Positions 15,884-29,010 of a DNA stretch of 64,000 bases are shown piece by piece. The stretch is from Bacteroidia bacterium. Its GTDB lineage: Bacteria; Bacteroidota; Bacteroidia; UBA4408. Below the pieces are notes generated by a model. It was given only the letters and a program-made list of their open reading frames with translations, was not told the origin of the DNA and searched no databases. How positions within the stretch are numbered: position 1 is the stretch's first letter; every line of letters starts with the position of its first letter. The stretch spans positions 118,678 to 182,677 of the forward strand of contig JADLFI010000030.1 in NCBI GenBank assembly GCA_020845635.1, in the 5' to 3' direction. The translations under genes were made by a program, and so were the position numbers.

Positions 15884-15956
15884 ACATTTATCTTTAATAT
15901 TTTCTTTTTTATTTATAAAAATCAAATATTTATCTTTTCTTTTTCATCTTTTTTTG

Positions 15957-15964
15957 TACCTTTG
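15957..15964 (+). promoter_or_regulatory. -7 box for the riboswitch transcript
   Basis: TACCTTTG matches TAnnTTTG and lies just before the conserved core of the cobalamin riboswitch, so transcription would start at about 15970. No convincing -33 TTTG is present. Confidence 0.5.
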
Positions 15965-15969
15965 CCATG

Positions 15970-16135
15970 TATTGGTTTTCAAGATAATTCTTTATCAAGA
16001 AATTAAAAGGGAATACTGTGTAAATCAGTAACAGTTCCCGCTGCTGTAAGCTTTTATTGCAATTTTATTGACACACATGCCACTTTTATTAAGGGAAGGC
16101 GTCAATCTAAAGTAAGTCAGAAAACCTGCCATTAC
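15970..16135 (+). promoter_or_regulatory. Cobalamin (vitamin B12) riboswitch
   Basis: The conserved cobalamin aptamer core is visible in order. First comes a GGGAA block followed by CTGTGTAAATCAG at about 16010-16028. Next is the B12-box-like AACAGTTCCCGCTGCTGTAAG around 16030-16050. Then come GCCACT at 16079-16084 and GGGAAGGCG at 16093-16101. Last is the closing AAGTCAGAAAACCTGCC at 16114-16130. Such riboswitches normally turn genes off when adenosyl- or other cobalamins are plentiful. The only gene downstream is the DUF4465/T9SS gene at 16279, with a leader of about 145 bases after the aptamer. The exact 5' boundary is uncertain. Confidence 0.9.
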
Positions 16136-16278
16136 AACTATTTTTATGTATAGCTTCGGGAAGAAAGCGGTATATGAATTTGCTTAAAATTTTTATATTT
16201 TTCTGCAGGTTTCTTTTGTTTTTTTCCGGTTGTTTTTGATGATACAAATTATTAACCTAATATAAACAAAAAAAACAA

Positions 16279-17298
16279 ATGAAAAAAAAACTACAAACCC
16301 TCGCACTATCAGTGCTTTTATCGGCTACCGGCCTTCAAGCTCAAAATGTAATTTCCGATTTTGAAAATTTAGTTCTTCCGCCACCGCCTGCGGCTCAATA
16401 TTGGAATGGAAACGACCTCTCAGGTGGTTTTACCAATGGTGCCATGTATTTTAAAAACAACTATGATACCTCATGGGGAGGCCTTTGGGTGGGTGGTTTT
16501 GCCTACTCTGCTATGACAGATACCGTAACTTCAGGCTTTGGTAATATGTATTCGGCCAAAACAGGTTCAGGAAATAACGGTTCAACTATTTATGCAATAG
16601 GCCAACAAAATGCTGTTGTTCTTTTTGATTCTACTATTAATTTACAGGGATTAGCTGATGGTTTTTATGTTACCAACACCACTTATGCCTATAACAGTAT
16701 GCGTGATGGTGATATGTTTTCGCGTAAATTTGGGGATACAACCGGAACTAATAGTGGACTGCCACAAGGTTCATACCCCGACTTTTTTAAACTTACTGTT
16801 TTAGGATATAACAATGGTAGTATTACTGACAGTGTAGAATTTTATTTAGCTGATTATCGTTTTACAAATGATAGTTTAGACTATATCGTAAACACATGGG
16901 AATATGTTGATTGTTCACCATTAGGAATAATTGACAGTTTAAAATTTGTATTAACATCGAGCGATATGGGGCCATTTGGTATGAATACCCCTGCATTCTT
17001 TGGTATTGATGACCTTTCCATTACTCCTGATCTTGTTGGTATTTCTAACACTACAAGTAATAATCAATCTTTTATGCTGTATCCCAATCCAACATCAGGC
17101 AACTTCTATGTAAAATCAAATAATGAATCATTAACTCTTATGATTACTTTGTTTGACATTAATGGAAAAACAGTCTTCGAAAAAGAAAATATAAGAGCTA
17201 ATCAACCGGTTGATATTTCTACTTTAGCTGCAGGAATTTATACGGTTAAATTTACTTCTGAGAAAGGTACAGAATATACTAAGCTTATTAAAGATTAA
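16279..17298 (+). CDS. DUF4465 protein with T9SS sorting domain, under B12 riboswitch control
   Basis: A 339-residue secreted protein. It has a signal peptide (MKKKLQTLALSVLLSATGLQA), then a DUF4465 domain at about 25-250, opening 'ISDFENLVLPPPPAAQYWNG' with internal 'GGLWVGGFAYSAMTD' and 'FFGIDDLSI'. The end is a type A T9SS sorting domain from about 265 (YPNPTSGNFYV ... AAGIYTVKF). The riboswitch upstream implies a role in corrinoid acquisition. My recollection is that DUF4465 proteins occur in Bacteroides B12-transport loci and are related to the BtuH surface B12-binding proteins; I could not check this. Inference: a surface-exposed or released B12-binding protein. It is monocistronic, ending at a strong terminator. 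Confidence 0.88.
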   Translation: MKKKLQTLALSVLLSATGLQAQNVISDFENLVLPPPPAAQYWNGNDLSGGFTNGAMYFKNNYDTSWGGLWVGGFAYSAMTDTVTSGFGNMYSAKTGSGNNGSTIYAIGQQNAVVLFDSTINLQGLADGFYVTNTTYAYNSMRDGDMFSRKFGDTTGTNSGLPQGSYPDFFKLTVLGYNNGSITDSVEFYLADYRFTNDSLDYIVNTWEYVDCSPLGIIDSLKFVLTSSDMGPFGMNTPAFFGIDDLSITPDLVGISNTTSNNQSFMLYPNPTSGNFYVKSNNESLTLMITLFDINGKTVFEKENIRANQPVDISTLAAGIYTVKFTSEKGTEYTKLIKD

Positions 17299-17366: not shown

Positions 17367-19718
17367 TTATTCTTTAACTAGTTTTTGAGTAAACAAAACT
17401 GAGGCCGAACTTAATTTGACTTGATAAATACCGCTTTGTAAATTTTCAATATTTATAGAAACAATATTACTTCCTTCTAATATTTGGGTATTTCCTGTTA
17501 ATACTAGCTTTCCTGTAATATCAAAGACTTGATACGAGGCCTTTTCCTTTATTGAAGAATTGAAATATAAGTTAATATTTTGTGATGTAGGATTAGGTGA
17601 TATATATAAGTTAGAGACTGATGTACTAATATTAGAAACACCTAATGTATTACATGGTATAACAGGGTTTGCAATATAATTCATCGTATAAAAATCAATA
17701 TAACAAGCATATTCAGGATGATCTACAAACGGGTTACGATTGCCTTGCAAAGAGTCTAAAAAATCGTTACGTGCAATATCCCAATTGTTAGGAGGAAAGT
17801 TATAATGCCATTTTTTCAAAACATTTTGATCTTGCCCATAAAGAATACTATTACTAATAGGGTTTCTTAATTTCCAATTTTGAGGGTTTCCAAATGCATC
17901 ATTTAAATTATTATGCGCCACAGCCATATACATAATGGCTCTGGCAGCACGTCCTTTTTGTTCGTCTCGCGGTTCAAATACTCTATTTCCGTTAACATCT
18001 GTTCCAATTTTACAATCCAAGAATGTTTCTTCTACGTTTACCACCTCTCCCATTGGGTAATTGCTTCTAACAGCATTTACATCATCTTGGTTGGTTGGAT
18101 ATAAATTATGTTGGTCGTTGTATTCAGGGCGCTCTGTATTATTAGGTGTAGCTCCTGAACCATCAGCCGGGAAAGTAGGCATCCAGTTATGACAATATGT
18201 GTGTTCTCTGCTCATATACCCCCAAGTTATTGGTTCAGAATAGATATATTTTAACCCACTATAAACGCAAGTAGCTACTTTTTTCCCATTTAAAGTATCG
18301 GTAGCGGCAAATAGCTTCATCATAGTGCTGCCGTAGTTCCCATAATAAATTTTATTTCTTCCCGGAACATTAATAACGCTAGTTAAATCATTAACAAATG
18401 TTGATGATGATGTATTAATGGTGGCATATTCATTCATAGGCATCATACTGGCAGATGATGTAACATTACCCACTAACTCGGCTGCTTGGTTATAATTGCG
18501 AAATGTTCCGTTTCCGTTGTAGGCATAAATGGCAAAAGAATAATCGGTTGAGGCAACAATATTATTTACTATAAAATCTGTTGAGGTAAACGATCCCACC
18601 ACTTTATTATTTGTTCCAACAGTATCTCCTCTTAAATATACTTTTCCATCCATTGGGTAAGTAAATGGGGTATTATTAACTTGACGAACTACTAAATAGC
18701 CATCAGCACTTCCCGATGAAGTAAAGGAGCCATGAAGCCTATATGATTTAATATAATTGTTTCCCCCTGTAAATTCTAAATTGCTAAGTGTAACATTGGG
18801 TTCAGAAGCAATTGTTCCACCAATACCATCTAATTGAACCACAAAAACTCCTGCAGTGCTATCGTTTGAGTAAATAGATAAAGTTGCCGGACGACTACCG
18901 TTAGCTTGTGGATTAAATGAAATATCTAGATTTTGAACACTAGTGCCATTGGATGAGGCTGCAACAGTAATAGGTAAAGATGAAGTTATAGAATAGTCGG
19001 AAGCATAGGTTCCCGATATTGCTGTGCTATCATAAATTATTAAATCATTAGTATTACCATAGTTAGATATAGCCAATGATATGGTTATAGGATTACCTAC
19101 ACCCGTATTAAAATTAATAGTCTGATTATTAACAAGGTTTGTAGAATTATAATTTACCACCAATTGCGGGCCCGGACCAATAGCCGGTGCTGCAATACTT
19201 ATGTCATCTAGGCCAACATTGCAGCTAGACGTCTTTGAAGTAAAATACCATCTGATATATCTTGCTGATGGATCGGGGTTAAGTGTTTCCACAACATAAT
19301 TTCCTGTTGCCGGGAGCGCCCCTGAACCACTATAACTTTTAATTAAAGGCAAAGCCGTAAAATTAATACCATCAACCGATTGTTGAACGTCAAATGTGCC
19401 ACTCCAAGCTGAAACATTTCCAATATTTCCTCTTATAGAATAGGTTATGGGACCGGGTTCTGTGGCTGTATGTATCATAGCATACTGTCCGGTGCTTTGT
19501 AGTTTTAGTGAAGGGAAATTAGCCCCCCCTGAGTTTGCAGCATTATAAATTTCATTTCCTGTTGTTACGTTAGCCGTAAAGCCATTAGGAATAGCACAAT
19601 AAGGGTAGCTTCCGGTAGCATCGGAAAAGCCAAAATTTGGCATTGGAATAGCTACTTGTGCTTGTGTGTTAAGACTCCATATAGAAACTAAAAGAAGTCC
19701 AAAAAATAGTTTTTTCAT
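17367..19718 (-). CDS. Secreted endonuclease I family nuclease with T9SS sorting domain
   Basis: A 783-residue extracellular nuclease. The signal peptide (MKKLFFGLLLVSIWSLNTQA) is followed by a discoidin-like domain at about 20-175, a HYDIN/choice-of-anchor-like beta domain at about 180-300 and an FnIII-like domain at about 305-420. The endonuclease I domain (about 430-690) is unmistakable: 'SREHTYCHNWMP', 'YNDQHNLYPTNQDDVNAVRS', 'EPRDEQKGRAARAIMYMAV' and 'RNPFVDHPEYA'. These include the His/Asn/Glu metal-site residues of the EndA/NucM group. A type A T9SS domain closes it ('YISPNPTSQNINLYF ... GIYQVKL'). It is the last gene of a reverse-strand cluster containing a TonB receptor, suggesting use of extracellular nucleic acid. 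Confidence 0.92.
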   Translation of the reverse strand: MKKLFFGLLLVSIWSLNTQAQVAIPMPNFGFSDATGSYPYCAIPNGFTANVTTGNEIYNAANSGGANFPSLKLQSTGQYAMIHTATEPGPITYSIRGNIGNVSAWSGTFDVQQSVDGINFTALPLIKSYSGSGALPATGNYVVETLNPDPSARYIRWYFTSKTSSCNVGLDDISIAAPAIGPGPQLVVNYNSTNLVNNQTINFNTGVGNPITISLAISNYGNTNDLIIYDSTAISGTYASDYSITSSLPITVAASSNGTSVQNLDISFNPQANGSRPATLSIYSNDSTAGVFVVQLDGIGGTIASEPNVTLSNLEFTGGNNYIKSYRLHGSFTSSGSADGYLVVRQVNNTPFTYPMDGKVYLRGDTVGTNNKVVGSFTSTDFIVNNIVASTDYSFAIYAYNGNGTFRNYNQAAELVGNVTSSASMMPMNEYATINTSSSTFVNDLTSVINVPGRNKIYYGNYGSTMMKLFAATDTLNGKKVATCVYSGLKYIYSEPITWGYMSREHTYCHNWMPTFPADGSGATPNNTERPEYNDQHNLYPTNQDDVNAVRSNYPMGEVVNVEETFLDCKIGTDVNGNRVFEPRDEQKGRAARAIMYMAVAHNNLNDAFGNPQNWKLRNPISNSILYGQDQNVLKKWHYNFPPNNWDIARNDFLDSLQGNRNPFVDHPEYACYIDFYTMNYIANPVIPCNTLGVSNISTSVSNLYISPNPTSQNINLYFNSSIKEKASYQVFDITGKLVLTGNTQILEGSNIVSINIENLQSGIYQVKLSSASVLFTQKLVKE

Positions 19719-19736
19719 TGTTGAATTATTGAGTTT

Positions 19737-20477
19737 TTAGAAATGAGTGCTTAATCCTAAAGTAAAATTTAAACTGCTAACTTTTTGTGAGAATTTATAG
19801 GTATTGTAATTATAAGAATTATTGCCAAAGTCGGCTATTTTAAGATTATACCCTTTAACATTTGAATTAAGGCTGCTTATATTTAATACAAAACCGGTAT
19901 TTTGCGTAATTTTATAAATGAAGCCTAAATTTGCAGCTAAAGCTAAAGAAGAGTTCCATGTAGCATATACTCGGCTTGAGTATGAAACTTTGTCAATTAC
20001 TATCAATGTTTCAATCAGTGGATTTCGTAAAAATAAAACTCCGCCTTGTATATTTCCGTATATATTTAGTTTACTGTTAACATTCATGCCGGTTCCTATA
20101 CCTGCCGTTAGTGAATGTACGTTCCAGGTTCCGGCTGTTGCGTTGGTAAAGCTTACATTATTATTGGTTTGTTCAGTTGCCGTAGCACTATTTATATCGG
20201 CTAATTTATTGGTATTTAACTTGTTGTTTAGAAAATGGTAAGCGCCTGCAAATTCAATATTCTTATAAAACTTTATTTTGTATAAACCGGTAAGGCAAAA
20301 TCCATTTTTTGCAAAACCTCCATTGGTATTTGTTGTTGCATAATCTCCAACAGGGGCCGATAAACCGGCTGATACAAAGAAAGTTTGATTCAGGGTTTTG
20401 GTGCTGTCGTTTTGGGCGTACAAAGTACCCGAAACGAAAAACAAAACACAAAGAAGTATTTTAGTTTGAAAATGCAT
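19737..20477 (-). CDS. Predicted outer-membrane beta-barrel protein of unknown function
   Basis: A 246-residue protein with a signal peptide (MHFQTKILLCVLFFVSGTLYA), then alternating amphipathic strands rich in Gly/Asn/Tyr and a C-terminal Phe ('FTLGLSTHF'), the usual pattern of small outer-membrane barrels. I recognise no named family. It lies between the lipoprotein and the endonuclease genes, with gaps of 11 and 18 bases, so it is almost surely co-transcribed with the TonB receptor cluster. It could be an accessory pore or a structural barrel for that system. Confidence 0.75.
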   Translation of the reverse strand: MHFQTKILLCVLFFVSGTLYAQNDSTKTLNQTFFVSAGLSAPVGDYATTNTNGGFAKNGFCLTGLYKIKFYKNIEFAGAYHFLNNKLNTNKLADINSATATEQTNNNVSFTNATAGTWNVHSLTAGIGTGMNVNSKLNIYGNIQGGVLFLRNPLIETLIVIDKVSYSSRVYATWNSSLALAANLGFIYKITQNTGFVLNISSLNSNVKGYNLKIADFGNNSYNYNTYKFSQKVSSLNFTLGLSTHF

Positions 20478-20488
20478 GAATCTCTCTT

Positions 20489-21370
20489 TTAGGTCAAGTA
20501 TTTAATTTTTATGGTAATTACCGTTTTTCCATCATTACTCCTTAATTTTACTAATGAAATATCGGGATTACCTCCGGGATCGGCATATAAATTATTTCTA
20601 AAATAATCAACAAAAATAAATGGAATAGAAGCTATAAGTTGTAAATCTCCGTTGCTGTCTTTGTTGTATATCTTCAAGGTGTGTTCATCGAGCATACGCG
20701 AAAACAGAATATAGCGCAAGGCCGATGGATATTGCCAGGAAATAGGTGTTGAGTTAACATTCTCCAGAACCAAATTTGCAGGAGGAGTTGATGACCACCC
20801 ATATAGGTTTGAGTTTTGAGCTCGTCCTGTGGAGTCAACCCAAACCTGATGAATGTCGTAAAATTTATACAATACATTTGGCCCTCCTGAAACATTCCAA
20901 TTTCCTCCTGTTAGCGGATTAGTATAGTTTACCGAATCAAGAGTAATTGCTGTAATTTGTGCACTTTTGGGTTTTTCTTTTATTTCAATATTTAACGAAA
21001 ATGTGTCTGTCCCATATTTATTGGTAGCCACCAACGAAAGTTGAGCTGTTTGTAATTCATTAAAAATCAAGTACCCTATTTCTTTCTCTGATGAAACAAG
21101 TCCATTGGTGTTATTTGATACTAAATACCATTGATAATTAACCTCTGTCACCGGGCTAGAACTTGTATTTACAATTTTTATGGTATCGTTTTCATAAAAT
21201 GATTTAACCAAAGTAACAAATCTTGCCTTAGGCTTAGCTTGTTCGGGCAATACCCCTTGTGTTGGTACTAACGACCGAGAAGTTAAATCTTCATTTTTAT
21301 TACATGCTATGCTAAAAAGCAGTATCAATGTAAGAAACAAAAGATTAATATGAATGTTTTTTAGTCTCAT
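20489..21370 (-). CDS. Lipoprotein with a PKD/Ig-like domain, partner of the TonB receptor
   Basis: A 293-residue predicted lipoprotein with a lipobox at 'LLFSIAC' (Cys23). Residues about 50-130 look like a PKD/Ig-like fold ('YQWYLVSNN ... SLVATNKYGTDTFSL'). The rest has no domain I recognise. Its ATG overlaps the stop of the TonB receptor gene by one base (TAATG), so translation is likely coupled and the product may be a lid-like or accessory surface lipoprotein of that receptor, in the manner of SusD-type partners, though it shows no SusD sequence features. Confidence 0.75.
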   Translation of the reverse strand: MRLKNIHINLLFLTLILLFSIACNKNEDLTSRSLVPTQGVLPEQAKPKARFVTLVKSFYENDTIKIVNTSSSPVTEVNYQWYLVSNNTNGLVSSEKEIGYLIFNELQTAQLSLVATNKYGTDTFSLNIEIKEKPKSAQITAITLDSVNYTNPLTGGNWNVSGGPNVLYKFYDIHQVWVDSTGRAQNSNLYGWSSTPPANLVLENVNSTPISWQYPSALRYILFSRMLDEHTLKIYNKDSNGDLQLIASIPFIFVDYFRNNLYADPGGNPDISLVKLRSNDGKTVITIKIKYLT

Positions 21371-24174
21371 TAAAAAATAAATTTTGCAGAAATATTAAAC
21401 CTTCTTCCTTGACCAAAGAAAACCCCGGCTGACTCCGCATTAAAGCGATTTCCAATAGTTTTGCCACCAAATAAAGCCCTATTGCTTAATCCGTTATTTT
21501 GTGCGTCAGAAATGTATTTGGTGTTTAATACATTAATTACGTTAACCCCTAAACTTAATTTATACGATTTATAGATTTTAAAAGAGTAGCCTGAAAAAGC
21601 ATCTAAAGTTCCATAAGCCGGTATTTTCCAGCTTTCTCGGTCAGCATTTTCGTCTTTTAATGAGGTTGGGTCAAAACTGGCATAGTTTTTATCAAAGTAT
21701 GTATATCTCGCTTTAATATACAAACTTTTAATAGGTTCAAAATTTACTGTACCAGAATATTGTATTTGTGCAGCATTGCCTACATGTACACCAACAGCCG
21801 AGAAGGTTTGGATTCCATAGGGTTTTCCTGAATAGGGGTCAATAGCTGGATTTCCGTTGGCGTCAATAATATAATATTCGCGTTTTGAAGTATATCTCCA
21901 GTCGCCTATGGATATTAAGCCGTTAAAGCTCCATACTTTGTTTAACTTGTATGCTGCATCTATCTCTATTCCTTTATGTAATGCATCAAGTCCGTTAATA
22001 TTGTAATAAAGTACGGTTTCTCCTAAAATAGGATCATCTACTAATTTTGATGGGGTAAAATCGGGAGGCCTATTTTTCCATACCGTATAATAAGCATTTA
22101 CATTAACCGATAGCCCGGATGTGCGATAGCCATAACCTCCTTCAATAGCTTTAACATATTGATAATCAATATCGCCAAAGAGGCGATTATTTCTATCAAA
22201 TACATGAACAAATTTAGGAGCAAGTTTTAGATAACCGGCATTGATAAATACATTATGGTTCTCATTAATGTTATAATTACCTCCACTTTTAAAGGTATAT
22301 CCTAAAAAGTTTTTGCTTTCGGTTGATGCTGTTTGGGCCTCGGGCGACAGATAATTATAGGCTACCCCATTATGCACAATAGTATCGGCATATCCTAAAG
22401 CTGTTTTATAAGTAGTATCACTCAATACTAAATCTTTTTTAGCAAAATAATCTTTTCTTTGGTAATTACTTACAGATCCGGTAACATTAACAAAGGCACT
22501 AAACTTATCTGTTTTATATTCTAATTGGGTAAAAGCCCCTCCCCATTTAACAATACCATCATAGTAATAACCTATTTTGTCGCCTTGTTTCTTAATTTGA
22601 AACTCCTGATCATTAATTCCCTGCGGTTGATTATTATTACTGATATCATTTAAATAAGTGCCTCCTATTAAATCATACGCGGTTTGATAGTGGGTACCTC
22701 TGTAACTTCTCAAGTCGGCCCCTAACTGATAATTTAGGTTTTTTGTTATTTTATAATTAATAGAACTAAGTAGGCCATACCAAAAATGGTCGTTATAGCT
22801 AGTTCGTGAGAAAGTACTGGCATTTCCGGTTAAGGTATTTGTATTATATGAATTTTGATAGTTGTACTGCCCGGTGGTAGAGTCGGGATTGGCAGGCAAA
22901 TTCTGCATAGTGGTTCCGCCCCCGGTGCCTTTTGACAAGTAGGCAACGGTTGATAGGGTCAGATTACTGTTTATATTATAAAAATCTGATATAGAAATAA
23001 CCGGTTTTGAATAGAAATTAACTCTCTCATTTACTATTACTTCTTTTCCGTCTTTATCTATATATGTACCCCATTGCCTGTTATATCTTAATCCCTTATT
23101 TAAGCTTTTATCAAGCATTGACAGGGTGTCTGTAAATCCTTGCGACATTCCATGTTCTAGGCCATAACCAATATCATAAACCGCCATACTGTATTGCGAG
23201 TACCGTTGTGCATGTTTTTGAGTGGCGCCATTAATGGAGGCACTGATAAGATGTTTTTCTCCTACTCGCTTTTGAATCTTAAAAAAATAGGAATACGATT
23301 TTATCCAAGTCTGATCTACCCAACCATCTCCTGTTCTTTTTGAAAAGGCCGTTGTTATCCCCAATCCATTTTTCATAACCCCCGAATTGTATGAAACAGA
23401 TGTTCTTAAAGAGTTATTGTTTCCTATTTCTTGCTTTATTACTCCTTCGGCTTTTTGGTCTATTCCTTTGGTTAAAATATTTAGGGTGCCGCCAACTGAT
23501 GGTAAGGCAAGTTTTGAAGCCCCTAAACCACGCTGTACTTGCATACTTCCGGTAACATCTCCTAAGCCCTCCCAATTGCTCCAATATACTGCACCATTTT
23601 CCATATCATTAAAAGGAATTCCGTCTATCATTACTGCTACATTGCGTTGGTCAAATCCTCTAACATTAATACGAGCATCACCACTCCCCCCACCACTTTC
23701 TGTGGCATAAACTCCCGGGGTAGAATTAAGCACCATGGGTAAATCCCTGGTTCCTAACTCTTGTTGTAGTTGTTTTATTGGAATTGTGGAAAAGGCCACC
23801 GGAGTTTCGCGATTTCGGGCAACATCGGCAACAATTTCAATTTCTTTCAACACTGTTTTTGAAGCCAACTTTACATTTAAAACCATGTTGGCATTTACAT
23901 TAATTTCCATTTGTTGAGTTTCGTACCCAACATACGAAAAGGTTAACTTATGTTTCCCGGCATTCAATTGAATCTTAAAGTTGCCGTCTAAATCACTTGC
24001 CACTCCTTTGTTCTCTGCATATAATACACTAACTCCTATTAAAGACTCCATATTTTGTGCATCTTTAATAGTGCCGCTTACTTCAAAGGTTTGAGCTTGC
24101 AGATGATAGCAGGTAAGAAATAATAAAACCGAAAATACTCCGACTATATTTCTTTTTATCGAATAAGGAAACAT
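21370..24174 (-). CDS. TonB-dependent receptor with carboxypeptidase-regulatory-like N-domain
   Basis: A complete 934-residue outer-membrane transporter. The signal peptide lies within the first 28 residues (ending LQAQ), followed by a CarboxypepD_reg-like domain at about 30-115 ('VSGTIKDAQNMESLIGVSV', 'FSYVGYETQ'). The plug is at about 125-240 ('NVRGFDQRNVAVMIDGIPF', 'RGLGASKLALPSVGGTLNI'), then a 22-strand-type barrel ending in Phe ('FNISAKFIF'). Such receptors use TonB/ExbBD energy to import large or scarce solutes. The neighbours, a lamin-tail-like secreted protein upstream and a secreted endonuclease I downstream, suggest a nucleic-acid-derived or phosphate-containing substrate; this is inference. 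Confidence 0.93.
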   Translation of the reverse strand: MFPYSIKRNIVGVFSVLLFLTCYHLQAQTFEVSGTIKDAQNMESLIGVSVLYAENKGVASDLDGNFKIQLNAGKHKLTFSYVGYETQQMEINVNANMVLNVKLASKTVLKEIEIVADVARNRETPVAFSTIPIKQLQQELGTRDLPMVLNSTPGVYATESGGGSGDARINVRGFDQRNVAVMIDGIPFNDMENGAVYWSNWEGLGDVTGSMQVQRGLGASKLALPSVGGTLNILTKGIDQKAEGVIKQEIGNNNSLRTSVSYNSGVMKNGLGITTAFSKRTGDGWVDQTWIKSYSYFFKIQKRVGEKHLISASINGATQKHAQRYSQYSMAVYDIGYGLEHGMSQGFTDTLSMLDKSLNKGLRYNRQWGTYIDKDGKEVIVNERVNFYSKPVISISDFYNINSNLTLSTVAYLSKGTGGGTTMQNLPANPDSTTGQYNYQNSYNTNTLTGNASTFSRTSYNDHFWYGLLSSINYKITKNLNYQLGADLRSYRGTHYQTAYDLIGGTYLNDISNNNQPQGINDQEFQIKKQGDKIGYYYDGIVKWGGAFTQLEYKTDKFSAFVNVTGSVSNYQRKDYFAKKDLVLSDTTYKTALGYADTIVHNGVAYNYLSPEAQTASTESKNFLGYTFKSGGNYNINENHNVFINAGYLKLAPKFVHVFDRNNRLFGDIDYQYVKAIEGGYGYRTSGLSVNVNAYYTVWKNRPPDFTPSKLVDDPILGETVLYYNINGLDALHKGIEIDAAYKLNKVWSFNGLISIGDWRYTSKREYYIIDANGNPAIDPYSGKPYGIQTFSAVGVHVGNAAQIQYSGTVNFEPIKSLYIKARYTYFDKNYASFDPTSLKDENADRESWKIPAYGTLDAFSGYSFKIYKSYKLSLGVNVINVLNTKYISDAQNNGLSNRALFGGKTIGNRFNAESAGVFFGQGRRFNISAKFIF

Positions 24175-24193
24175 GATTATTTAATGTGGGCTG

Positions 24194-25189
24194 CTACTCA
24201 AATATAACTTTATTAATAAGAGTTTTTTTAGAAATTGTATGTGTTTTAATAAAGTATATTCCCTTAGGATAATTCTCAGTGTTAATCATAAAAATATCTT
24301 TATTGATATTCTGGAATGTGGCAGTTACTTGTCCCATAACATTAAACAGTTCAATATATTTAATGTTCTCGGAAGCAGATATAGTTAGTTGAGCGCTGGT
24401 TGGTACAGGATAAACTTTGGCTGATTGTAAAGCACCAATTTCGTTTATTCCGGTAAAACAATCGCAAGTATGTGAACCAAATAATGAAAATAAATCAAGG
24501 CTGTCAGCTTGTGTAGCGGTAGCCGGAAGTCTTGGTAAAGTATCCCATTGATCAAGCGGATTAAACTCGGTAATAGATGTTAAATCTCCGGCAACAGGCG
24601 GTATTCTTCCCCCTTTAACGGAGGCTTTTCTTTCCATCAAATAAAATCTAGTAATCCATTTTCCCATTCCTGAACCGCCACGATACGGAGCAATACTACT
24701 CCATGCGGTATTTACAGTGCAGTTTACCTCTCCAAAAACGTCAATAATTACGCCATCTTTTCTTAATACTAAACAGTCATTCCCTTTAAAATACATTGGC
24801 TGTCCAACATTTGCACCATGTGTTCCATAGAGTAAATCCAGTTGATCGGCTATTGCCTGAAAAGCCGGATTGGGTTGAGGACTTGATGGAGTTGAGTTGG
24901 CAGAATCTTGTCCGTTTACCAACACCCAAGTGCTATAGGGAGGCACAACGCCTCTTAAATACAAAGAATCATCCATTATGGCATCAATTGCATCTGTTTG
25001 GCTGTTTGATTTATAGCGCTCTATAGAGTATCTTCCCTGTGTAAGATCTATAGGATTGGCAGTTGGGTTGTAAAATTCAACACCCTTGGTATTTCCTTGC
25101 CCGCGCATATATTTTGAAATAAACAACTCATTACATTGAGCAAAAATATTAGATGAAGCAAGCGTAAATAGAAGTAAAAGTTTTTTCAT
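24194..25189 (-). CDS. Secreted lamin-tail-domain-like protein with T9SS sorting domain
   Basis: A 331-residue protein starting at ATG 25189 (MKKLLLLFTLASSNIFAQ, a signal peptide). A longer frame from 25216 would begin inside the promoter box, so I reject it. The mature start 'CNELFISKYMRGQGNTKGVEFYNP' and the following beta-rich region (to about 230) resemble the lamin-tail domain often attached to secreted nucleases and phosphatases in Bacteroidota. The C-terminal 70 residues form a type A T9SS domain ('VYPVPTSAQLTISA ... GIYFIKT'). Position 20 bases before the TonB receptor gene makes it the first gene of that cluster. Confidence 0.8.
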   Translation of the reverse strand: MKKLLLLFTLASSNIFAQCNELFISKYMRGQGNTKGVEFYNPTANPIDLTQGRYSIERYKSNSQTDAIDAIMDDSLYLRGVVPPYSTWVLVNGQDSANSTPSSPQPNPAFQAIADQLDLLYGTHGANVGQPMYFKGNDCLVLRKDGVIIDVFGEVNCTVNTAWSSIAPYRGGSGMGKWITRFYLMERKASVKGGRIPPVAGDLTSITEFNPLDQWDTLPRLPATATQADSLDLFSLFGSHTCDCFTGINEIGALQSAKVYPVPTSAQLTISASENIKYIELFNVMGQVTATFQNINKDIFMINTENYPKGIYFIKTHTISKKTLINKVIFE

Positions 25190-25213
25190 TGATTTGTTTT
25201 TGTAATTTGGCAA

Positions 25214-25221
25214 CAAATATA
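25214..25221 (-). promoter_or_regulatory. -7 box of the lamin-tail/TonB/endonuclease cluster
   Basis: Reads TATATTTG on the reverse strand (TAnnTTTG), 24 bases before the ATG at 25189 and between the upstream terminator and the cluster. It is a plausible promoter for the five genes ending at 17367. Confidence 0.5.
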
Positions 25222-25463: not shown

Positions 25464-27317
25464 TTATCGTTGAATAATTATTTTATGAGAAAACTCTTCG
25501 CCATTTTGAGTAGCTTTCACGAAATAAATCCCTTCACTTAAATCAGATAGATTTATATCTGACTGCATACCGCTTGCCATAGTTTGGAGAACTTCATGAC
25601 CTAAAATATTATATATCTTAACAAGTTTCAAATCATTTGAAGAAGACTGAATAGTAATCTTTTCTTGTGCCGGATTAGGATAAACTATCAATTTTTGCCC
25701 TTGATTGGTTAGTGTGTTAACTCCTACTGTTACCGGATTTCCTGGCAAAGTATAAAATTCATGCTCTGCTCTTGCCGGAAAGAAAATTCCTGCATCATTA
25801 TTCTCTGTGTAAACATAATATTCAGTATAGTTAGAAGTTATGATTATACTGCCCCCATAAACAAAGTCTCCTGCCACACCATCATTGTGCAAGCCATCAT
25901 CATATAAAGTAATTGAAGTAAACTTTAATGTAGAATCACTACGATATGAAAACTGAACATAATCAGCATTTGTAACAGATACGGTAATATTTACAACATC
26001 GTTAATTGATGGAGTATAAGAGCTTAATTGTATAGCAGCCACATCAGGTGCAACTTTTATTATTTCCGAATCCGACTGTAAAAATGCAACACGGGCATCC
26101 ATTAAATTTGCAATTCCCGGAACTGTTCTACCATTAATGATTACATCTTGTGTCATTCCATTTTGAAATGCAGCATCAGAGAAAAACTTATTTGTATCTG
26201 CTATAACAGAGCTTTGTATAGTTGCCTGAAAATCGGCTGCTAGTGTTTTGTAAAAATCATTTGCAAACATTTCATTTAATATGGTTCTGTAATGTGCCAT
26301 GTATTTTCGTTTATACTGGTCATTTTGCATAATGATATTAATTAATGGCCAGTCGGTATGTGTGCTATGTGCTAAAGGCGATAGTGTCTGCATATCTGAA
26401 AGAGCAAGTGTCCCCATTCCGTTACTTGGCGAGCCTAAAAAGTTAAATCCGCCAAACGCCATATTTAAATCCCAAATAATAGGATTCCATATTCCGTTAT
26501 TATCTTTATAAATAAAATAATTTTGTGAAAACACGCCTATATAACTATCTAAGTTTACCAAGATATTATCAAAAGCAAGCATCCAAATTACTCTATCAAT
26601 ATCCATCACTCCGGCAAGTGATGAAGGGCTATTGGTAATAGTATCACAAAGGGCAATAAAATCAACCCATCCACTCGATCCGCTCGATTCTTTTTCATAC
26701 AAATCAGTATAAGAGGAACTGTTGTCATCAATGTATTTCAAATTAGCTTTCATTGCAGGTGATGCCAATGCAGGACTTGCTTTAAAAAATGGATTGGCAG
26801 AAGAATAAAAGTGTTTTAAGACAAAGCTTTTGTTTATATCCTCGTCATTTGAGTAAAGTCCAATCAATACATCATTTATGTAAATTTTGGCATAGTTACT
26901 TTGTGGGCAATGCATATAGTTTTTCAAAATAGAATATGCTAATACTTCTCTAATCATTGAAGGATCATCATAACAATTAGCCATTTTCAGGCTAGTGTAG
27001 CCCTGATAATTTTGCCCTGAAACAAATTTGTCAAATTTAATGGTAAACGGGTTTTTAACTTGGGTTGGGTCGTATGAGCTGTTTCCTTTATATTTAATGC
27101 CTACCGAGTCTAATTTCGTTCCGTTTACTATAACAGAATCTGCTTGAAGATATCCTAAATCATATAATTTTAGAGAGTCTAAAATATGATCCCAATCCGG
27201 CTCATGGAAATAAATCTTAATCTCCTGAACAACATATTGATCATACAATCCGGTTTGAGAAAAACTTTTGTTGCAAAATAATGCCAGAGAGAATAATAAA
27301 AGAATGGATTTTTTCAT
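25464..27317 (-). CDS. Secreted CotH-family protein kinase with T9SS sorting domain
   Basis: A 617-residue secreted protein with signal peptide MKKSILLLFSLALFCNKSFSQ. The CotH kinase-like domain covers about 28-380: 'VNGTKLDSVGIKYKGNSSYD', 'KNPFTIKFDKF', 'YINDVLIGLYSNDEDINKSF' and the metal/catalytic-type 'IIWDLNMAFGGF'. CotH proteins of spore-forming bacteria and fungi phosphorylate secreted proteins; that knowledge is transferred by family only. A linker beta domain (about 420-530) and a type A T9SS domain ('VYPNPAQEKITI ... GIYFVKAT') follow. It is last of three cargo genes and lies 13 bases behind the arylsulfotransferase gene. Confidence 0.9.
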   Translation of the reverse strand: MKKSILLLFSLALFCNKSFSQTGLYDQYVVQEIKIYFHEPDWDHILDSLKLYDLGYLQADSVIVNGTKLDSVGIKYKGNSSYDPTQVKNPFTIKFDKFVSGQNYQGYTSLKMANCYDDPSMIREVLAYSILKNYMHCPQSNYAKIYINDVLIGLYSNDEDINKSFVLKHFYSSANPFFKASPALASPAMKANLKYIDDNSSSYTDLYEKESSGSSGWVDFIALCDTITNSPSSLAGVMDIDRVIWMLAFDNILVNLDSYIGVFSQNYFIYKDNNGIWNPIIWDLNMAFGGFNFLGSPSNGMGTLALSDMQTLSPLAHSTHTDWPLINIIMQNDQYKRKYMAHYRTILNEMFANDFYKTLAADFQATIQSSVIADTNKFFSDAAFQNGMTQDVIINGRTVPGIANLMDARVAFLQSDSEIIKVAPDVAAIQLSSYTPSINDVVNITVSVTNADYVQFSYRSDSTLKFTSITLYDDGLHNDGVAGDFVYGGSIIITSNYTEYYVYTENNDAGIFFPARAEHEFYTLPGNPVTVGVNTLTNQGQKLIVYPNPAQEKITIQSSSNDLKLVKIYNILGHEVLQTMASGMQSDINLSDLSEGIYFVKATQNGEEFSHKIIIQR

Positions 27318-27330
27318 GAATAATAATAAT

Positions 27331-29010
27331 TTATCTATTAATAATTAGTTTGTTTGTTTTAACTCCATTATCAGTTGTAATAATGTGTATAGAGTAGATT
27401 CCGTTTGATAAGTTGTTTAAGTCTAATTGGGTTTGATTTTTAACTGAATATACTTGTTGACCTAAAGTATTAATAATTTCTACTTGAAATTCGTTTTGTG
27501 TAAAAGCTCCTTGAAGTGTTACAAACCCTGTTGTTGGATTAGGATAAATTTTTACTCCAACGCCTGCAGACAACTCAAATATATTTGTTATAGCTCCTGA
27601 GTATTTATAGCCTACAGAGTAGCTGTAAACACAACCATTATCATCGGTAACTCGTACCAGATAAATTCCATTAACGGTTGGGGTATAGTTTTGTGAAGTT
27701 GCTCCCGAAATAGCTTGTCCGTTTAAATACCATTGATAGGTTGTTGCAGAAGTAGAGGATAAGACACCGGAATTTTCTGTAATTGTTGGAATAGCCGGTG
27801 CAGGATTGTTGATATAACAATCGGAATAGCGATAGGCCTTTGAAACTGCACCTGAGGCTGTTTTAGTCCATAAATTTGTCCCGTTACTATTCGTTTCACT
27901 CATTACTCCCGACATACCGATAGTAATTAAATGATTTCCGTTAGGCAATTGTTGTGAGCCTCCTTGATTGTTCGTTTTACCTACACCTATAATACGGTCA
28001 GAATAAGTAGTAGGCATAAAGGCTTGCCCTGCCGTATAATCGTAAACATATCCATTAACAGGGGCATCAATAAAATCAACCGTTGACTTAGATGGTGTAC
28101 CTCCATTATTAAAACAAGCTAATCTACCTGCATTGGGCGAGCCTTCAGGTATCCAATGTGCATCATGCACTACATTCAGAGTTTTGGGTATTCCTGTTAT
28201 TCCGTAGGCTGCCGGGTTTCCCCAACGATACAAGATATCGCCACCTTTCCCTGAATTTCCGCCTGAATGTGAGGCTGCCTCAGCAGTTGTTGTGCTATGG
28301 TCAATAACATATATTTCATTTAGATTATGGCTGCTGAATGTAATTTGATCTAATATTGGATTATAGTCTATTCCATTCATGTGAATCCAGTCTTTTTGTG
28401 TATTGTAATTAATGTTTATCAATTCAGGATGGTCACTGATTGTGGTTGCGTAATTATCCTTTGATGGGTCATAATTTTGAACTAAATGATCCCAAAGGTG
28501 CCATTCCCAAACAACTGTACCGGTAGTGGCTCCGGTGGGCTGTACTTCTACAATTTTTTCCGACCATATTTCTATATTCTGCGAACAACCTGCCTGAGTA
28601 GCCTGGGCTGCTGTTTTTCTTTCGTAAGCTATCAGTAAAACATTCCCATTAGGCATAGGGCAAATATCGTGATGAGTACAGTAATTAGCGGTTGAGTAAA
28701 CAAAATCCCAAACAACATTACCATTATAATCAACTTTTTGTACCTCTCCACAAATGGGGCCGCCTGAAAATGAATTGCCGGAACGTGCTACCGTTCTAAC
28801 CAAAGTGCCTCCGGGTTCCATATAGGTAGAATAACCTGTTTTATAAGATGATGGGTGTGTCCATGTTTTTACTACAGTTCCTGTGGTATCGTACAAATAC
28901 GTTGCTGTACTGTTATTGGTGCTGTAAAGTGTTTTCCCATTCCACTTCTGTGCCATTGAAATTGTTGCAACACAAACAATGAGGCTTATTGCTAAAGCTA
29001 TTCTTTTCAT
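27331..29010 (-). CDS. Secreted arylsulfotransferase-family protein with T9SS sorting domain
   Basis: A 559-residue secreted protein with a signal peptide ending 'TISMA'. Residues about 20-390 form the beta-propeller of the arylsulfotransferase (ASST) family, with the His-bearing motifs 'YCTHHDICPMPNGNVL', 'DWIHMNGIDYNP' and 'SSHNLNEIYVID', plus 'RWGNPAAYG' and 'VHDAHWIPEG'. ASST enzymes move sulfate from aryl sulfates to phenols. An Ig-like segment (about 410-470) and a type A T9SS domain ('IYPNPTTGFVTLQG') follow. Its ATG overlaps the stop of the upstream gene by one base, so the two are translationally coupled. Acceptor and donor are unknown; the domain could also be a non-enzymatic propeller. 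Confidence 0.88.
   Translation of the reverse strand: MKRIALAISLIVCVATISMAQKWNGKTLYSTNNSTATYLYDTTGTVVKTWTHPSSYKTGYSTYMEPGGTLVRTVARSGNSFSGGPICGEVQKVDYNGNVVWDFVYSTANYCTHHDICPMPNGNVLLIAYERKTAAQATQAGCSQNIEIWSEKIVEVQPTGATTGTVVWEWHLWDHLVQNYDPSKDNYATTISDHPELININYNTQKDWIHMNGIDYNPILDQITFSSHNLNEIYVIDHSTTTAEAASHSGGNSGKGGDILYRWGNPAAYGITGIPKTLNVVHDAHWIPEGSPNAGRLACFNNGGTPSKSTVDFIDAPVNGYVYDYTAGQAFMPTTYSDRIIGVGKTNNQGGSQQLPNGNHLITIGMSGVMSETNSNGTNLWTKTASGAVSKAYRYSDCYINNPAPAIPTITENSGVLSSTSATTYQWYLNGQAISGATSQNYTPTVNGIYLVRVTDDNGCVYSYSVGYKYSGAITNIFELSAGVGVKIYPNPTTGFVTLQGAFTQNEFQVEIINTLGQQVYSVKNQTQLDLNNLSNGIYSIHIITTDNGVKTNKLIINR

Follow-up and report, generated by a model that had tools for sequence, protein, structure and literature searches.

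What would a bacterium gain from carrying a secreted nuclease and a TonB-dependent receptor in one operon? This question is raised by a locus in a 64,000-nt stretch of a Bacteroidia bacterium genome (contig JADLFI010000030.1; the whole stretch is referred to here as the window), in which five ORFs lie on the reverse strand from 25189 to 17367, with intergenic gaps of 19, −1, 11, and 18 bases. Their predicted products are a 331-aa T9SS-exported lamin-tail protein (25189-24194), a 934-aa TonB-dependent receptor (24174-21370), a 293-aa lipoprotein with the lipobox SIAC (21370-20489), a 246-aa outer-membrane-barrel-like protein (20477-19737), and a 783-aa T9SS-exported endonuclease I (EndoI) protein (19718-17367). 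On the same strand, a promoter-like box, TATATTTG, lies at 25221-25214; it is a predicted Bacteroidota −7 element and fits the sequence that we take to be the consensus, TAnnTTTG, while inspection of the sequence upstream of the box gave no obvious good candidate for a −33 element. The ORF list starts the lamin-tail gene at a TTG at 25216, which falls within this box, and the ATG at 25189 was used instead. We know of no tested Pho box consensus for Bacteroidota.

At its 3′ border, the operon ends at a bidirectional terminator, a perfect 34-base palindrome at 17347-17314 that would act on both strands. The 5′ border is set by a second terminator on the reverse strand, a 17-bp hairpin followed by a T-run (25424-25388), which closes the upstream unit. 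The earlier note had described five close-packed reverse-strand genes between a promoter-like box and a bidirectional terminator, and the coordinates and sequence bear out each of these elements. The upstream unit (25464-29010, reverse strand) encodes T9SS proteins, namely, CotH-kinase and arylsulfotransferase-like (ASST) proteins, and is co-directional with the operon but separated from it by this strong terminator. Convergent with the operon, at 15956-17298 on the forward strand, a cobalamin riboswitch (RF00174, 90 bits) precedes a gene for a T9SS-exported DUF4465 protein; this surface protein may be B12-linked and separate from the nuclease and receptor.

The nuclease matched the EndoI family in Pfam (PF04231, E = 1e-29) with 104 bits against a curated cut-off of 25, its kin in the PDB is Vvn (1ouo, 8e-7), and it retains the motifs of the Vibrio enzyme, REH at 504 and VNAVRSN at 547, which we take to be the catalytic Glu/His and the metal-binding Asn, respectively. 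By sequence, then, it is a member of PF04231 with its catalytic motifs kept, and the 3.05-Mb window genome has a single copy of this family. Its N-terminal part is F5/8-like and choice-of-anchor-D-like, and it ends in a T9SS sorting domain (PF18962, 9e-13). The same C-terminal domain occurs in the lamin-tail protein, in which Pfam detected PF00932 (6e-10) and Por_Secre_tail (7e-10); a model of this protein (pLDDT 82) matched T9SS tails and, weakly, the Ig folds of lamin B1 and A/C. The window genome also encodes the T9SS translocon SprA (3.5e-165). With both the sorting domain and a genomic T9SS present, the nuclease and the lamin-tail protein are predicted T9SS cargo.

The two genes between the receptor and the nuclease are of a different kind. 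The lipoprotein gave no match in Pfam, NCBIfam, or the PDB, and the 246-aa protein, a barrel as predicted from its sequence, gave none in Pfam or NCBIfam. Both were found again in one genome alone, a member of the same family as the window genome (G005, locus L092), with E values of 2e-5 for the lipoprotein and 9e-24 for the barrel-like protein. Tried as a marker for the whole system, the lipoprotein gave weak matches in 6 of 149 genomes, all in unrelated large proteins, and was dropped. These two proteins thus appear as lineage-specific accessories, and the earlier suggestion that the lipoprotein is a conserved partner coupled to the receptor did not hold.

The three remaining genes, for the lamin-tail protein, the receptor, and the nuclease, form the core of the operon. 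When 149 relatives were searched with the receptor, 52 genomes proved to have an orthologue at E ≤ 1e-80; the extended loci from this search were combined with 80 further loci, leaving 117 after removal of duplicates. The conserved order in this set is the lamin-tail protein, the receptor, sometimes a small lipocalin-like lipoprotein, and then the T9SS nuclease. In 112 of the 117 nonredundant loci, the gene immediately upstream of the receptor encodes a T9SS lamin-tail protein, and a T9SS nuclease lies downstream in 94 of the 101 that could be judged (7 had none, and a contig end intervened in 16); in G005, the closest relative, the cassette has no nuclease nearby. Carriers are labelled Flavobacteriales, Bacteroidales, Marinilabiliales, Chitinophagales, and Sphingobacteriales, and the cassette stays constant while its flanking genes vary. 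The earlier note had held that a gene order not conserved in relatives would speak against its reading, and the core passes this check. It is conceivable that the operon merely brings together unrelated surface proteins with no common function, since many T9SS surface proteins are encoded in the window and the co-directional CotH and ASST genes adjoin it. However, a cassette that is kept among varying flanks at 117 loci from several orders makes such a chance neighborhood highly improbable, and for the three core genes the conserved order excludes it.

Some genes near the cassettes were set aside as plain chromosomal neighbors: the glycosyltransferase and dihydroorotase genes 3′ of the nuclease in Bacteroidales loci and a deoxyhypusine-synthase-like gene adjoining several cassettes. 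In L057, a transposase-like 128-aa ORF is inserted between the receptor and the nuclease. The record for L111 (CP034120.1) is labelled Glaciecola amylolytica, a gammaproteobacterium, yet it contains SprA and T9SS-tailed proteins and so very probably derives from a Bacteroidota strain. This locus comprises lamin-tail, receptor, EndoI, and 5′-nucleotidase genes.

The downstream nuclease is not always of the same type. Among the 94 loci with a nuclease, 64 have EndoI and 30 have a PLD-type enzyme composed of two PLD domains and DUF5689, which is unrelated to EndoI. On the receptor tree (all trees were built with FastTree), at least 3 switches between types are forced by well-supported branches, and parsimony gives 8. 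Some Bacteroidales loci have a third layout, in which EndoI is fused to a DUF5689-like part, and 5 of these also have an EEP-type nuclease. Unrelated nucleases that share one substrate class and lie beside one receptor clade are what would be predicted if the substrate drives the association. On the other side, the PLD fold also occurs in enzymes whose substrates are phospholipids, and the cassettes with no nuclease nearby count against a nucleic-acid system.

We then asked what the receptor is related to. In Pfam it matched CarbopepD_reg_2 (1e-17, N-terminal) and Plug (2e-13), and it is one of 18 Plug-domain receptors in the window genome. Its nearest experimentally studied kin is RA0C_RS04915 of Riemerella anatipestifer, a duck bacterium. 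In the receptor tree, which includes all 18 receptors of the window genome and those of a second genome, a single clade with a support of 100 unites the lamin-tail-linked branch, a pgi-linked branch, and a DUF5689-linked branch that contains RS04915; all 34 background receptors fall outside it. The DUF5689-linked receptors had been selected for their neighbor rather than for similarity to the window receptor and so test the clade independently. A profile of the DUF5689-linked receptors scored the lamin-tail-linked receptors at 221 to 286 bits and 40 background receptors at no more than 49, whereas the reverse profile, made from the lamin-tail-linked receptors, gave no clean separation (137 to 278 bits for the DUF5689 branch versus 128 to 189 for three outside receptors). 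One candidate, L210, was removed from the profile because its neighbor is a different kind of TonB receptor. The pgi-linked branch consists of receptors beside the glucose-6-phosphate isomerase gene in L084 and L089; with no adjoining lamin-tail or nuclease gene, these were ruled out as cassette carriers and treated as a third branch. Both genomes also have a DUF5689-linked receptor.

A transposon screen in R. anatipestifer found two genes of one operon to be essential for natural transformation (PMC8459023): RS04915, whose product is an outer-membrane protein carrying a carboxypeptidase-like domain, and RS04920 (DUF5689). Loss of TonBA lowers transformation in this species without an iron defect (PMC8383284). 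We located the genome via the published comEC primer (PMC8383284) and assigned the two genes by their order beside recA and comEC, in agreement with the locus tags and with the published domains (PMC8459023). The order there is recA, comEC, an EEP nuclease, a 935-aa receptor, and a 467-aa DUF5689 lipoprotein. The two systems thus share the receptor clade, an adjoining secreted nuclease (EEP in R. anatipestifer), and a secretin-free genome with ComEC. They differ in that the partner in R. anatipestifer is a downstream DUF5689 lipoprotein, while here it is an upstream T9SS lamin-tail protein; that RS04915 has no significant Plug match, while the window receptor does; and that the known phenotype of the pair is transformation, not nutrition. 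In a sample of the class, DUF5689 genes likewise lie behind TonB receptors, with a divergent EEP nuclease in 13 of 20 loci and sometimes a PLD/DUF5689 nuclease.

The earlier note had proposed nucleic acid as the substrate, and the grouping of the window receptor with a transformation receptor, rather than with receptors of a known unrelated substrate, makes this well supported. An alternative is that the nuclease degrades extracellular DNA, from biofilm or prey lysate, while the receptor imports some other co-occurring compound, such as a metal or cofactor. Foldseek matched the AlphaFold2 model of the receptor (pLDDT 80) to TonB receptors in general, the best being PqqU/YncD at ~13% identity, and among solved receptors, transporters of siderophores and PQQ are the closest in fold. 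The pgi-linked branch without a nuclease would also fit, as would the role of EndoI and ExeM-type nucleases in shaping Shewanella biofilms (PMC6085458). Yet such fold matches at ~13% identity hold for any TonB receptor, so that the substrate is unreadable from the model, and separate cargo would leave unexplained both the kinship to a receptor tied to DNA uptake and the presence of one receptor clade beside unrelated nuclease families across orders. We consider this alternative unlikely.

Pairing a secreted nuclease with kin of a DNA-uptake receptor, the cluster probably pulls pieces of nucleic acid into the cell, and such import is better supported than its purpose. One possible purpose is natural transformation, in which the receptor would carry long DNA to a ComEA-like protein and ComEC, with the surface nuclease making ends or trimming the DNA, a part that nucleases play in other competent bacteria. 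The placement of the window receptor in the RS04915 clade is consistent with this, and the window genome encodes ComEC and an HHH_3 (ComEA-like, helix-hairpin-helix) protein. In most competent Gram-negatives, a secretin is the outer-membrane route; none was found in the four genomes checked, which include the window genome and that of R. anatipestifer. Lamin-tail-linked and DUF5689-linked receptors never co-occur (of 150 genomes, 46 have one kind and 26 the other; Fisher P = 2e-5, on hand-drawn lists and with a statistic that ignores phylogeny), and both kinds occur within families f3, f20, and f28, alternating as if they substituted for each other. On the other hand, ComEC is widespread and little informative, no DUF5689 was found in the window genome, which thus lacks the lipoprotein partner of the transformation type, and the operon's own secreted nuclease would degrade the very DNA meant for transformation. 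Moreover, 5′-nucleotidase genes follow in ten related loci, which points to nutrition; 8 have both halves (PF02872, 6.7e-17, and PF00149, 7e-20), and the other 2 are cut by contig ends. A 5′-nucleotidase would come next in such a pathway, splitting nucleotides into nucleoside and phosphate, although the window operon itself has no such genes. On balance, transformation as the purpose of this operon seems rather unlikely, though it is a serious contender.

The presence of a nuclease in the operon favors a nutritional purpose, as do the loci with 5′-nucleotidases and the regulation of related nucleases: in Flavobacterium johnsoniae, Fjoh_4721 and Fjoh_4723 (EndA1 and EndA2), secreted proteins with fn3, lamin-tail (LTD), and EndoI domains, are induced by Pi depletion (PMC8115612). 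With moderate confidence, we interpret the cluster as serving the cleavage of nucleic acid at the cell surface and the TonB-dependent import of the fragments, most likely for nutrition, with phosphorus as the gain. T9SS would export the nuclease, here EndoI, and the lamin-tail protein to the surface, where the nuclease would cleave DNA or RNA outside the cell and the lamin-tail protein would probably help to retain the nucleic acid or to anchor the nuclease there. The receptor would then carry oligonucleotides, presumably the imported form, through the outer membrane, and periplasmic enzymes would free phosphate and nucleosides, the supply of which we infer to be the main purpose.

How does this arrangement compare with known systems? 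The earlier note had likened it to polysaccharide utilization loci, and a TonB receptor does adjoin a secreted depolymerizing enzyme in SusCD-type loci, too. However, the window operon has no SusD-like lipoprotein, its receptor is not of the SusC kind, and Pfam identified no carbohydrate-active enzyme, the nuclease being the sole enzyme found among the five genes. Without a SusD partner, this is not a polysaccharide-type locus. We found no published description of the cluster in the open-licence literature, and an earlier description may exist. Its individual parts are known already: secreted EndoI, lamin-tail nucleases (ExeM), the loci of the Izemoplasmatales (former Tenericutes), and the Riemerella pair. 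The Izemoplasmatales DNA-degradation loci (PMC8289736) and Shewanella ExeM (PMC6085458) also join a lamin-tail domain with an extracellular nuclease, with DNA as the nutrient, but use other nuclease families and have no TonB receptor. EndA1 and EndA2 of F. johnsoniae are closer in that they are secreted and join a lamin-tail domain with EndoI; they differ in being single fused proteins, described as orphan and without a linked receptor (PMC8115612).

The four secretin-free genomes raise the question of the route by which DNA passes the outer membrane in Bacteroidota. We tentatively suggest, as a possibility that we rate somewhat below even, that an ancient family of Bacteroidota TonB receptors imports nucleic acid, as oligonucleotides or DNA, without a secretin, the DUF5689 branch serving transformation and the lamin-tail branch, with its interchangeable nucleases, nutrition. 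If both branches do import nucleic acid, one protein family would join DNA as food and DNA as genetic material, and the uptake of degradation products by Bacteroidota, which have been described as major degraders of DNA in sediments, would be explained. The lamin-tail and DUF5689 domains would also gain a testable role. DUF5689 recurs in secreted nucleases, both of the PLD type and as a DUF5689-like part of EndoI proteins, as well as in the Riemerella transformation lipoprotein (L202, L209, L148, L125, L162, and L316), and is a candidate nucleic-acid-binding domain.
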